A stretch of 64,000 nt of DNA. It comes from Thermosynechococcus sp. HN-54. Its GTDB lineage: Bacteria > Cyanobacteriota > Cyanobacteriia > Thermosynechococcales > Thermosynechococcaceae. Position numbers and translations under genes: made by a program. Positions 22,861 through 26,639 of the stretch are shown here, one piece after another. Location: contig NZ_CP098039.1 of the NCBI RefSeq assembly GCF_023650955.1, positions 1,240,001 to 1,304,000 on the forward strand. Direction: 5' to 3'. The notes under the pieces are model-generated. The model saw only the letters and a list, made by a program, of their open reading frames with translations, did not search any database and was not told where the DNA came from. Numbering within the stretch: the stretch's first letter is position 1; each line of letters begins with the position of its first letter.

Positions 22861-23160
22861 ATGATGCTCCCCCAAGAAATCATCGGCCAAAAAGTGTGGT
22901 TGGAAGTGGAACCCGAAGATGCCTACTATCCGGGTGAGAAAATTCGAGTACAGGCGGAAATTAGCCAGCCCACTGCTCCCCCGTGGTACTATGCTCGCTA
23001 CATTAACCCGCCCCGCTGGTTCCGTACCCAAGGACAGTGGCTCACCCACCATGAGGCTGAGATGGCGGTGCTCTTGAATCCAGTCCTGGAGGATCTAGAA
23101 CGGGAGGAGGAGGACTTCGACGGGGATGAGCTGACCAACGGCGATGTGGGCGATCGCTAG
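22861..23160 (+). CDS. hypothetical cyanobacterial protein
   Basis: 99 aa from the ATG at 22861, with GAGGAA upstream; a second ATG follows directly. The first 75 residues look like a small beta-rich domain (IIGQKVWLEVEPEDAYYPGEK, then WYYARYINPPRWFRTQGQW) and the last 25 are very acidic (EDLEREEEDFDGDEL). It has no recognised domain. It stands alone between arsJ and the rimP leader. Confidence 0.6.
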   Translation: MMLPQEIIGQKVWLEVEPEDAYYPGEKIRVQAEISQPTAPPWYYARYINPPRWFRTQGQWLTHHEAEMAVLLNPVLEDLEREEEDFDGDELTNGDVGDR

Positions 23161-23211
23161 GGGTATCCATAAGGAAGGTTGCGGGGGTGGCGATCGCTCA
23201 GTGTGAGCTGC

Positions 23212-23357
23212 TATACTAAACTTAATGAAGAGGGGTGTATTGGCAACACCCATGAGCCTTCCACGGTGAACGGTTCAGAAATTTCCTTCCCCTAGGGAAG
23301 TGGGAATGTCATCTTTCGAGACTATTTGGGTGTGGTGGGCAATGTCCCGCCTTTTTT
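23212..23357 (+). ncRNA. candidate structured leader RNA or small RNA upstream of rimP
   Basis: A -10 TATACT (23212-23217) is followed by about 135 bases rich in hairpins: GGGTGT/ACACCC (23233-23238 with 23246-23251), CTTCCC/GGGAAG (23286-23291 with 23295-23300) and a terminator at 23334-23357. A second GGGTGT (23328-23333) abuts the terminator stem and could pair with the same ACACCC, giving two exclusive folds. It could be an attenuator for rimP-nusA or a free-standing small RNA. No known family is recognised. Confidence 0.45.
23334..23357 (+). terminator. intrinsic terminator just before rimP
   Basis: GGTGGG-CAATGT-CCCGCC stem followed by six T. It ends seven bases before the rimP ATG, which has no Shine-Dalgarno sequence. 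Confidence 0.65.
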
Positions 23358-23364
23358 ATTTCCT

Positions 23365-23838
23365 ATGCAGATACAGACGCTTTTGCCTGTGGTGCAAACC
23401 TTGGCCCAACAGGTTGCCGACCAAGAACACCTTGATCTAGTGAGTGTGCAGTGGCTCACCCATCAATCGCCACCCATTTTGCGGGTGGAGGTGCGCCATC
23501 CTGAGGATGACACCAGTTTGGAGGATTGTGAACGGCTGAGTCGGGCACTGGAGGTAGCCTTGGATGCCCTGCCAGAGTTGGAGTTTGCTTACGTTTTAGA
23601 GGTGTCCAGTCCGGGTCTATCGGATTACCTAAGTAGCGATCGCGACTTTGATGCCTTTCGCGGCTTTCCAGTGCAGGTCACAACCACAGCGCCCCATCGC
23701 GGCAAAACTCTCTGGGAAGGAACCCTGATTCGTCGCGACGAGGTAAATGTCTATCTCAATCAACGGGGGCGATCCCTGGCAATTCCCCGCTCCCTCATTG
23801 CCAGTGTCCAACTATACACCCCCAGCAGTGAACCTTAG
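23365..23838 (+). CDS. rimP: ribosome maturation factor RimP
   Basis: 157 aa. Binds the 30S subunit late in assembly. Family features are VADQEHLDLVSVQW, LRVEVRHPEDDTSLEDCERLSRALE, YVLEVSSPGLSDYLSSDRDF and FRGFPVQV. The ATG at 23365 gives the normal N-terminus MQIQTLLPVVQ; the frame is open to 23326 but that part is the terminator. Lack of a ribosome binding site suggests translation is controlled by the leader or by an mRNA starting nearby. The order rimP-nusA-ylxR is conserved across bacteria. Confidence 0.92.
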   Translation: MQIQTLLPVVQTLAQQVADQEHLDLVSVQWLTHQSPPILRVEVRHPEDDTSLEDCERLSRALEVALDALPELEFAYVLEVSSPGLSDYLSSDRDFDAFRGFPVQVTTTAPHRGKTLWEGTLIRRDEVNVYLNQRGRSLAIPRSLIASVQLYTPSSEP

Positions 23839-23879: not shown

Positions 23880-25067
23880 ATGACCATCTATCGCTTACCT
23901 GGCCTACGGGCCATGATTAATGAAATCAGCCAAGAGCGGAATTTGCCCAAGCACGCAGTGCACCAAGCCCTCAAGGAAGCGTTACTCAAGGGGTACGAAC
24001 GCTATCGCCGCAGTCTGCGCCCCGATCATGGCCACTTTGAGGAGGATCACTTTGCCAACTTTGAAGTGGAACTAGACACTGAACAGGAAGGCTTCCGCAT
24101 TTTAGCCACCAAAGCCATTACAGAAACTGTAGAAAACCCGGATCGTGAGATTGCCCTTGCTGATGTCATTGAGGTGGTGCAGGATGCCCGTGTCGGCGAT
24201 ACGGTGCTGTTGGATGTGACCCCTGACCATCAGGAATTTGGCCGCATGGCCGCCATGCAAACCAAGCAAGTACTGGCGCAGAAATTGCGAGATCAACAGC
24301 GTCGCCTCGTCCAAGAGGAATTCAAAGACCTCGAGGGCACCGTACTCATGGGGCGCGTTCTCCGTTTTGAGCGGCGATCGGTGATTATGGCGGTGCGCAG
24401 CGATGCTAGCCAACCGGAAGTGGAGGCCGAATTGCCGAAACGGGAACAACTTCCCAACGACAACTACCGCGCCAACTCCACATTCAAGGTGTATCTCAAG
24501 CGTGTCAAAGAGGGACCTCAGCGCGGCCCCCAATTGGAGGTCTCCCGTGCCGATGCTGGACTGGTGGTCTATCTCTTTGCCAATGAGGTGCCAGAAATTG
24601 AGGACGAAGTGGTGCGGATTGTTGCCATTGCCCGCGAGGCCAATCCCCCGAACCATAAAGTGGGTCCCCGCACCAAAATTGCCGTGGATACCTTAGAGCG
24701 GGATGTCGATCCGGTGGGTGCCTGCATTGGCGCTCGGGGATCCCGCATTCAAGCGGTGGTGAATGAACTGCGGGGGGAAAAAATTGATGTGATCCGCTGG
24801 TCGCCAGATCCAGCCACCTATATTGCCAATTCCCTGAGTCCGGCGCCGGTGGAGGAGGTGCGACTGATTAACCCCGAAGCCCGCATTGCCCATGTCCTCG
24901 TGGCACCGGATAAAGTCTCCCAAGCCATTGGTAAAGAAGGCCAAAATGTGCGCTTGGCCACCCGTCTGACGGGCTGGAAAATTGAGGTGCGCGATAGTTC
25001 TCAATACAACTACGAAGAGGAGGATCGCTTGGCCATGACCGCCCTTGAGGAACAAGTTGCCAGTTAG
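23880..25067 (+). CDS. nusA: transcription termination/antitermination factor NusA
   Basis: 395 aa. The order is an N-terminal RNA-polymerase-binding domain (1-130), S1 domain (about 135-200, GTVLMGRVLRFERRSVIM) and KH1/KH2 (about 230-380, with GACIGARGSRIQAVVNELRGE and AIGKEGQNVRLATRLTGW). The protein ends shortly after KH2, lacking the acidic repeats of E. coli NusA, as is usual outside proteobacteria. It lies 41 bases after rimP and 2 bases before ylxR. Confidence 0.95.
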   Translation: MTIYRLPGLRAMINEISQERNLPKHAVHQALKEALLKGYERYRRSLRPDHGHFEEDHFANFEVELDTEQEGFRILATKAITETVENPDREIALADVIEVVQDARVGDTVLLDVTPDHQEFGRMAAMQTKQVLAQKLRDQQRRLVQEEFKDLEGTVLMGRVLRFERRSVIMAVRSDASQPEVEAELPKREQLPNDNYRANSTFKVYLKRVKEGPQRGPQLEVSRADAGLVVYLFANEVPEIEDEVVRIVAIAREANPPNHKVGPRTKIAVDTLERDVDPVGACIGARGSRIQAVVNELRGEKIDVIRWSPDPATYIANSLSPAPVEEVRLINPEARIAHVLVAPDKVSQAIGKEGQNVRLATRLTGWKIEVRDSSQYNYEEEDRLAMTALEEQVAS

Positions 25068-25069
25068 GG

Positions 25070-25336
25070 ATGATGGCTGTCCTGCAACGCCGCTGTGTCG
25101 CCTGTGGCCGGTTGGCCGATCGCTCGGAGTTTTGGCGAATCGTGCGCTGCTGGCCCGATCAAAAGGTGCAATTGGATCAGGGAATGGGGCGATCGGCCTA
25201 TTTGTGTCGCACTGCTGAGTGTCTCAAGGTGGCTAAACAGAAAAAACGCTTGGCGCGATCGCTCCGCTGTCCAATTCCCAAGGATATTTTTACGACCCTT
25301 GCTGCTCGCTTAGATGCCCATCGCAACCATGACTAA
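25070..25336 (+). CDS. ylxR: YlxR-family RNA-binding/nucleoid-associated protein
   Basis: 88 aa with RRCVACGRLADRSEFWRIVR at the start and GRSAYLCRTAECL in the middle, the DUF448/YlxR signature. In Bacillus YlxR is a regulatory nucleoid-associated protein. It normally sits between nusA and infB; here the next gene is bioA, whose start lies inside this gene. Confidence 0.88.
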   Translation: MMAVLQRRCVACGRLADRSEFWRIVRCWPDQKVQLDQGMGRSAYLCRTAECLKVAKQKKRLARSLRCPIPKDIFTTLAARLDAHRNHD

Positions 25337-26639
25337 CTCCCCCATTTGGCAGCCCTTTACACAAATGAAAACGGCAGATCCGCCCCTGAAGGTGGTGCGT
25401 GCCCAGGGTGCTCGTCTCGAACTGAGCGATGGTCGGCAGATAATTGATGCCATTTCCAGTTGGTGGGTGACGCTCCATGGCCATAGCCATCCTGTGTTGG
25501 CTAAAGCGCTCTATGAGCAGGCGCAAACCCTTGAGCACGTCATTTTTGCTGGCTTTACCCATGAGCCAGCGGAGCAGTTGGCTCAATTACTGTGTGCTCA
25601 CACCCCGGCGGGGTTACAACGGATCTTTTTTTCCGACAATGGCTCAACCGCTGTGGAAGTCGCTCTGAAAATGGCCTACCAGTACTGGCAGCGGCGCGAT
25701 CAACCCCAGCGATCGCGCTTCATTGGCTTTGCCGGGGGGTACCATGGCGATACCCTTGGGGCAATGACTGTCGGCCAAAGTTCCCCTTGGTGGCAACCCT
25801 TTCAGCCGCTGCTCCCCCCTTTAACAATCCTGCCCTACCCCGCGACGTATCTGGGGGATCCAGAAGTAGAAACCAAGGAGGCGCTGGCGATCGCGCAACT
25901 GGAGGCCACCCTCAAGACAGACCCCGACGCTTATGCGGCTCTCTTCATTGAACCACTCGTACAGGGGGCAGGGGGAATGCGCATGTGTCGTCCGCAGTTT
26001 TTGCGAGCGGTTTCTGAGATTGCCAAGGCCTATGGCGTTTTGGTGGTTTATGACGAGGTGATGACAGGCTTTGGCCGCACCGGTGCCCTCTTTGCCTGTG
26101 AGAAAGCAGGGACACAACCGGATCTGCTGTGTTTATCAAAAGGGTTATCGGGAGGCTGCTTGCCCATTGCCGTCACATTGGCCACTGAGGAAATTTATCA
26201 AGCCTTTTATGCCGATGACCCCGCCCGTGCCTTCTTCCATAGCCATTCCTATACAGGGAATCCCTTGGCCTGTGCGGTGAGTGTGGCTTCCTTTCAATTG
26301 CTGCTTGCGGAACCTGAAGCTTACCAAGGCCTAGAGGCGCGCCATTGGCAGTGTCAACAGCAGTATCTTACCGATGTCAGCAATCTCAAGCAATTTCGCA
26401 CCTGTGGCACGATCGCGGCCATGGAATTAGAAACCGAGGCCTCCTACTTTAGTGCCCTTGTCCCCCAACTGCGCCGCCGCTTTATTGAGTTGGGTGTTCT
26501 CCTACGGCCTCTGGGGAATACGCTCTATATCTTGCCCCCCTACTGTATTACTGATGCGGAATTAGCCACGGTCTATCAAGCCATCCGCCAAGTGGCGATC
26601 GAGGTAGCCGAAGGTTACTTCACCGCAGTCTCTGCTTGA
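25329..26639 (+). CDS. bioA: adenosylmethionine-8-amino-7-oxononanoate aminotransferase
   Basis: 436 aa PLP enzyme of biotin synthesis that converts KAPA to DAPA using SAM as amino donor. The family N-terminus IWQPFTQMKTADPPL, ISSWWVTLHGHSHPVLA, FSDNGSTAVEVALKMAYQYW, GGYHGDTLGAM, VVYDEVMTGFGRTG and the PLP-lysine segment LCLSKGLSGG are all present. The ATG at 25329 overlaps the ylxR stop by eight bases; 25314 is an in-frame alternative. Its end overlaps the convergent DUF1823 gene by 25 bases. No other bio genes adjoin it. Confidence 0.92.
   Translation: MTNSPIWQPFTQMKTADPPLKVVRAQGARLELSDGRQIIDAISSWWVTLHGHSHPVLAKALYEQAQTLEHVIFAGFTHEPAEQLAQLLCAHTPAGLQRIFFSDNGSTAVEVALKMAYQYWQRRDQPQRSRFIGFAGGYHGDTLGAMTVGQSSPWWQPFQPLLPPLTILPYPATYLGDPEVETKEALAIAQLEATLKTDPDAYAALFIEPLVQGAGGMRMCRPQFLRAVSEIAKAYGVLVVYDEVMTGFGRTGALFACEKAGTQPDLLCLSKGLSGGCLPIAVTLATEEIYQAFYADDPARAFFHSHSYTGNPLACAVSVASFQLLLAEPEAYQGLEARHWQCQQQYLTDVSNLKQFRTCGTIAAMELETEASYFSALVPQLRRRFIELGVLLRPLGNTLYILPPYCITDAELATVYQAIRQVAIEVAEGYFTAVSA

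Follow-up and report, generated by a model that had tools for sequence, protein, structure and literature searches.

A near-invariant intrinsic terminator ahead of rimP-nusA in Thermosynechococcus and its recurrence across the cyanobacteria

What does a terminator do when it is placed directly ahead of the gene for a transcription termination factor, in bacteria that lack Rho? This question is raised by a stretch of 64,000 nucleotides (referred to here as the window) from Thermosynechococcus sp. HN-54 (contig NZ_CP098039.1, positions 1,240,001 to 1,304,000 of the forward strand). A predicted intrinsic terminator, GGTGGG-CAATGT-CCCGCC-TTTTTT, occupies positions 23334-23357 of its plus strand (GGTGGG at 23334-23339, CCCGCC at 23346-23351, and six T at 23352-23357), and is followed after 7 nt by the start codon of rimP, the first gene of a rimP-nusA-ylxR cluster. 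Cyanobacteria have no Rho, and canonical intrinsic termination has been reported for only 22% of the transcription units of Synechococcus elongatus (PMC13289151, 2026). A preliminary description of the locus had proposed that a structured leader, equipped with a promoter-like element and a terminator, immediately precedes rimP-nusA. The elements that it named (a -10 hexamer, two copies of GGGTGT, one ACACCC, the terminator, and the rimP ATG) all lie where it had placed them, and comparison across the genus and the class, described below, supports this arrangement.

The terminator in the genus and across the class

The leader was located in the genus by a DNA search of 58 genomes. The sequence CCCGCC-T6, with the ATG of rimP close behind, is present in all 11 genus genomes, and the whole leader can be aligned in nine of them. 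In the other two (G002 and G010), the leader is unalignable and the 1.5 kb examined does not contain the gene that lies upstream in the remaining nine, but the terminator is still present, with a change in the last base of its loop. As it is kept despite a different leader and a different upstream gene, the terminator, judged by sequence comparison, travels with rimP and not with the upstream gene. Its sequence is also nearly fixed. In the block running from TTTGGGTGT to the end of the T-run, 32 of 33 columns do not vary among the nine aligned genomes, versus 30 of 72 in the hairpin region that separates this block from the first hairpin of the leader (H1, see below). Moreover, a genome-wide search with the pattern GTGGG-N2-10-CCCRC-N-T5 returned 11 matches in ten genus genomes (four when the pattern was reversed), and all ten genomes have the pattern at rimP, which accounts for 10 of the 11 matches.

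The statistics of the single sequence are weak. The fold of the leader is only marginally more stable than those of its shuffled versions (z -1.23, with 26 of 200 shuffles equally good). Under strict settings, two terminator-like sites are found in the 64 kb of the window, the one in the rimP leader and another on the minus strand at position 133, while shuffled windows contain a mean of 0.28 sites, and at least one site appears in 10 of 40 shuffles. Looser settings reveal no surplus (11 sites observed versus 10.6 in shuffles). With the window sequence alone, both the fold score and the terminator census are compatible with chance, and it is because of the comparison with relatives that the leader is considered to be more than chance. 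Generic terminator-like sites between window positions 23800 and 43000 are no commoner than in shuffles either (17 versus 21.9), and this lack of a surplus fits the scarcity of canonical intrinsic terminators reported for S. elongatus.

Of the 194 genomes of the class, all but one gave a RimP match. From these 193, a sample of 90 class genomes was assembled, consisting of 30 loci plus 60 genomes picked by hand for spread among the matches listed; weak RimP matches, such as those of family f2, fall outside this sample, and f2 was examined separately. The strict pattern GTGGG-N2-10-CCC[AG]C-N-TTTTT, sought within 420 nt upstream of the rimP start codon, is present in 76 of the 90 genomes (66 of the 80 outside the genus), at a median of 18.5 nt from the start codon (range 5-246, counted from the fifth T). 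A second set is formed by 80 named loci, in which 12 upstream sequences repeat the 90-genome set and two repeat each other; here the strict pattern appears in 72, with a median distance to the start codon of 15 nt. When the search is relaxed to a looser GGG...CCC-T core within 250 nt, it is found in 81 of the 90 genomes and in 74 of 79 named loci (five and two more, respectively; L154, which has no upstream sequence, was dropped from the named loci). This looser core occurs in none of 106 sense control segments taken 600-850 nt upstream, and in 3 of 106 when the antisense strand of the leader is searched. In one locus (L184) the evident terminator has a longer loop, and the loose-core match listed for it is another site.

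The loop is also constrained to some extent: of 70 six-base loops taken from other genera, 67 begin with T or C and 68 end with G or A. Considering whole genomes, at least one match to the pattern is found in 152 of the 194 class genomes. A group of 16 further genomes, 12 of which are devoid of the pattern anywhere, has it at rimP in three cases. In three loci (L108, L191, and L198), rimP is preceded by another type of hairpin, which is followed by a T-run and lacks the GTGGG stem.

Relation to known leaders

The leader is a cyanobacterial member of an established kind, the rimP-leader. In the description by Naville and Gautheret (2010, PMC2965389), no attenuator is more widespread than the rimP-leader, which consists of a short GGGc...gCCC terminator followed by a T-stretch, is located 4-130 nt before the gene, and shows no visible antiterminator; these authors considered NusA the best candidate regulator. 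Neither "cyanobacteri" nor "Synechoc" is present in the main text of that paper. The element studied here shares with the rimP-leader its location in the 5' leader of rimP-nusA, the GGG...CCC hairpin with its T-stretch, a short distance to the gene (7 nt here, and 5-246 nt in the class), and the lack of a class-wide antiterminator (134 leaders). It differs in having a longer stem with the fixed sequence GTGGG...CCCRC, and in the inner bases, which are c...t or c...a in this genus instead of c...g. The Escherichia coli hairpin adjacent to the same gene reads GGGC-TTTAG-GCCC-T7 and is situated 17 nt before the start codon. The Rfam model for the gammaproteobacterial rimP leader (RF01770, 102 positions), which recovers the E. 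coli leader with 102 bits as a positive control, gives no match to the leader in the window (E up to 10) or to any of the 17 loci from cyanobacteria with which it was compared (E up to 1).

In Streptococcus agalactiae, a short and a long RNA arise from a single start in the rimP-nusA region (gbs0413-gbs0418), and a feedback by NusA has been suggested (PMC4448216). As in that leader, a terminator stands between the leader start and rimP-nusA, which in the present case is predicted from sequence; termination takes place 31 nt after the start in S. agalactiae, versus about 134 nt predicted here. Regarding cyanobacteria, it has been reported that NusA stimulates two intrinsic terminators when assayed in vitro with the RNA polymerase of S. 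elongatus (PMC13289151), in a paper whose main text does not name rimP. In Synechocystis, the so-called actuatons have been described as units in which a promoter, an RNA, and a terminator precede a gene that has no separate start site (PMC5386190). The same layout of promoter-like element, RNA, and terminator is predicted before rimP, and neither rimP nor nusA is mentioned in the main text of that work. No account of a cyanobacterial rimP leader was found in the part of the open-access literature that was screened, with supplementary lists and subscription papers lying outside the search.

Promoter-like element, leader folds and gene order

The promoter-like element is a TATACT hexamer at 23212-23217 (plus strand, like the hairpins, the terminator, and the genes of the cluster). 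A TG at 23209-23210 converts it into an extended -10, TGcTATACT (23209-23217), and the position of this -10 predicts a transcript start near 23224 and a leader of about 134 nt from there to the end of the terminator. A sigma-70 scan found no two-hexamer promoter, so the promoter call is based on the -10 element. The sequence TGNTATACT is kept in the nine alignable genus genomes, 136-137 nt before the 3' arm of the terminator, and is absent at the corresponding place in G002 and G010. Across the cyanobacteria, 80 of 130 leaders contain a TANA[CA]T hexamer at 50-89 nt before the terminator, versus 7 of 130 in a control segment (the count omits four leaders whose upstream sequence was shorter than 300 nt). 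The leader of the genus is longer than this class pattern, as 123 nt separate GTGGG from the -10 hexamer. Near the expected -35 position, at 23190-23197, lies the octamer GCGATCGC, which we take to be HIP1; nine of the 11 genus genomes have it upstream of the promoter.

Two of the three hairpins mentioned in the preliminary description persist as pairings in the genus. H2 (23254-23276) is paired in 95.8% of cells over the nine alignable genomes, with one compensatory change inside the helix, and the core of H3 (23280-23307, CTTCCC CTA GGGAAG plus an extension) in 90.7%, compared with about 50% for the whole structure in a control in which the structure was slid along the alignment. H1 (23233-23251), formed by the first GGGTGT (23233-23238) and ACACCC (23246-23251), is weak in relatives: its full six pairs exist in this genome only, the outer pair is absent in eight of nine genomes, and an inner pair is broken in one. 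ACACCC also takes part in a closing helix, in which ACACCCA (23246-23252) pairs with TGGGTGT (23327-23333), the strand that contains the second GGGTGT (23328-23333). This helix is paired in all nine genomes and belongs to the minimum-energy fold of eight, and it is nearly invariant, with one varying pair and no covariation. In the genus, the pairs of H2 and H3 are kept, but compensatory changes are few, and both the closing helix and the terminator hardly vary. Conserved pairing, whose absence the preliminary description had named as grounds for abandoning its proposal, is found at the terminator, so the proposal was not refuted on this count.

The same description had envisaged a switch in which ACACCC changes partner between the two copies of GGGTGT. 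The data do not bear this out, since neither partner takes a terminator arm; the closing helix abuts the terminator stem on its 5' side and ends just before it, without competing for the arms. A different fold, in which the leader's 5' end is joined to the 3' arm of the terminator, is the minimum-energy one in three of the nine genomes (G000, G007, and G008), and the AAGAG that it uses is replaced by AACAG in four of nine. Genus-specific alternative folds were rejected as antiterminators on the grounds that they are not conserved among the nine genomes. In a wider set of 134 distinct leaders, the upstream RNA is no more complementary to the terminator arms than shuffled sequence (mean z 0.10 for the 5' arm and -0.02 for the 3' arm), and p values up to 0.05 are reached by 2% and 7% of the leaders, respectively, in a test that spans 75 nt upstream and leaves the 5' end of the longer leader of this genus outside. 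As the complementarity to both arms does not exceed the shuffled level, an antiterminator was rejected as a class-wide feature. The 62 nt upstream of the terminator are nevertheless more structured in these leaders (mean z -1.52) than in control segments (-0.39). A hairpin abutting the 5' side of the terminator, considered as a possible common theme, was discarded, because it appears in 73 of 134 leaders versus 72.3 expected from shuffles.

The cluster downstream begins with rimP (23365-23838; PF02576, E 5.7e-14, and PF17384, E 6.3e-06), followed by nusA (23880-25067; PF08529, E 4.8e-28, and PF13184, E 7.6e-29) and ylxR (25070-25336; PF04296, E 6.7e-22), which is its last gene here. The ATG at 23365 was taken as the start of rimP, because the frame proposed by the ORF finder, which opens at a TTG at 23326, is broken in G009 by a 4-base deletion between the T-run and the ATG. 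Only 13 nt separate the end of the stem from this ATG, and inspection by eye revealed no Shine-Dalgarno-like sequence in them, in agreement with the earlier remark that rimP has no ribosome binding site. Two other candidates within the leader were dismissed: a short reading frame at 23252 (ATG AGC CTT CCA CGG TGA), whose ATG is kept in only six of nine genus genomes, and an Rfam suhB match at 23277-23366, taken as chance with 14.9 bits versus a gathering score of 41. Within window positions 25070-26639, ylxR is followed by a gene for a class-III aminotransferase, and infB, which comes after nusA in E. coli, is located more than 1 Mb away (G000:C1:193475-195244). Upstream of the leader, a gene at 22861-23160 encodes a protein of 99 amino acids with no Pfam match at E 0.001; it precedes rimP in nine of the 11 genus genomes and was not found in the searched loci outside the genus.

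Possible roles of the terminator

According to the explanation favoured here, transcription would start near 23224 and cross the structured leader. Part of the polymerases would stop at the terminator and release a short RNA, while the remaining ones would read through into rimP-nusA-ylxR. As NusA stimulates termination at hairpins of this type, more NusA would lead to more stopping and less nusA mRNA, which would result in a negative feedback loop that requires no RNA switch. That the terminator acts in its own leader is highly probable. Our judgement also leans, although with much less confidence, towards the full model, in which NusA sets the read-through of a premature terminator and thereby exerts negative feedback. 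Sequence comparison provides the terminator itself, its position at rimP, the near-fixed stem, the regular spacing of a promoter-like element, and the absence of an antiterminator common to the class; the start site, the partial read-through, and the role of NusA as effector are what we infer from them. The autoregulatory attenuator operated by NusA that had been proposed at the outset thus keeps part of its basis, as the terminator recurs at rimP and a NusA feedback is favoured in print, while the NusA step remains presumptive.

Several observations weigh against this model. The terminator pattern is missing at rimP in all nine genomes examined of family f2 (L210-L218), which indicates that the terminator is dispensable within the class; the rimP starts of this family were assigned as TTG by script. 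Some genomes contain many copies of the pattern (13 in G171 and 8 in G165), which means that the stem is not confined to rimP in every genome. In the genus, the pairs of the terminator are invariant, which makes covariation uninformative at that place. The printed evidence for NusA feedback comes from E. coli and S. agalactiae and not from cyanobacteria, and the two terminators stimulated by NusA in S. elongatus are not named in the section on NusA of that paper (PMC13289151). Finally, a generic stimulation of termination by NusA needs no fixed stem sequence, and the model leaves this conservation unexplained. As a separate observation, six of the nine f2 genomes share, by eye, a CTC...GAG hairpin about 50-90 nt before the rimP start codon, which looks like a replacement of the terminator element.

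The closeness with which the stem sequence is conserved across the class is the less expected part of the finding. It might be accounted for if the near-fixed stem, GTGGG(Y)-loop-(R)CCCRC, were a binding site for NusA or RimP and served as a dedicated sensor of termination capacity. Such a protein-binding stem would make sense of a conservation that extends beyond pairing to the sequence across the class, and would explain why the pattern is found at rimP and almost nowhere else in the genus; this idea is put forward tentatively, and is more doubtful than the NusA feedback. The conservation could simply serve to fix the strength of a plain terminator, which would block read-through from upstream and hold rimP-nusA at a fixed low level without any feedback. 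Such an insulating or throttling element works without a regulator, and read-through is possible in most loci, given that the nearest upstream frame of at least 200 codons is on the same strand in 72 of 83. However, the element follows rimP even in the two genus genomes in which the upstream gene is absent beside it, the long upstream frame is on the other strand in L133, L170, L176, L200, and L201 (these being frames and not proven genes), and more than half of the leaders counted above possess a promoter-like element 50-89 nt before the terminator. A merely insulating or throttling function is thus possible but on the whole unlikely, and termination of the upstream gene was rejected as the main role, because the element goes with rimP across differing upstream genes and strands.

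The remaining explanations shift the function to other parts of the leader. If the unit were an actuaton, the terminated leader of about 134 nt would be a functional small RNA and rimP would be expressed by read-through. The order of promoter, RNA, terminator, and gene agrees with this, the 7 nt between the T-run and the ATG would seem to leave no room for a second promoter, and the upstream RNA is more structured than shuffles, as stated above. Nevertheless, the RNA body is poorly conserved in comparison with the terminator block and cannot be aligned in two of the 11 genus genomes, and the genes concerned are missing from the main text of the paper on actuatons (PMC5386190), all of which makes a small RNA improbable as the purpose of the leader. 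An RNA switch, in which the pairing of ACACCC with either GGGTGT or of the 5' end with the 3' arm would make or break the terminator on a signal, has in its favour that both pairings can form in this sequence, that the 5' end/3' arm fold reaches minimum energy in some genomes, and that the closing helix is universally kept in the nine. Against it, the ACACCC pairings leave the terminator arms untouched, the other fold prevails in only a third of the genomes, the 134 leaders show no excess complementarity to either arm, and in Rfam no riboswitch or leader family reaches its gathering score in the window, nor is any match credible in the leader; very little probability is therefore assigned to a switch. 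The same low credence is given to translational control, according to which the hairpin would limit the access of ribosomes to rimP. The short interval of 13 nt without a Shine-Dalgarno-like sequence is consistent with this, but the distance from the motif to the start codon varies widely in the class (5-246 nt), and what is conserved is the stem with its T-run, not their closeness to the gene.

Although the kind of element was already known, which limits the surprise, a terminator of nearly one sequence before the gene for a termination factor in most of the sampled cyanobacteria would offer a defined place to study termination capacity. With NusA feedback as the favoured reading, the proposal made in 2010 for other bacteria extends to a phylum in which it may be tested without Rho.
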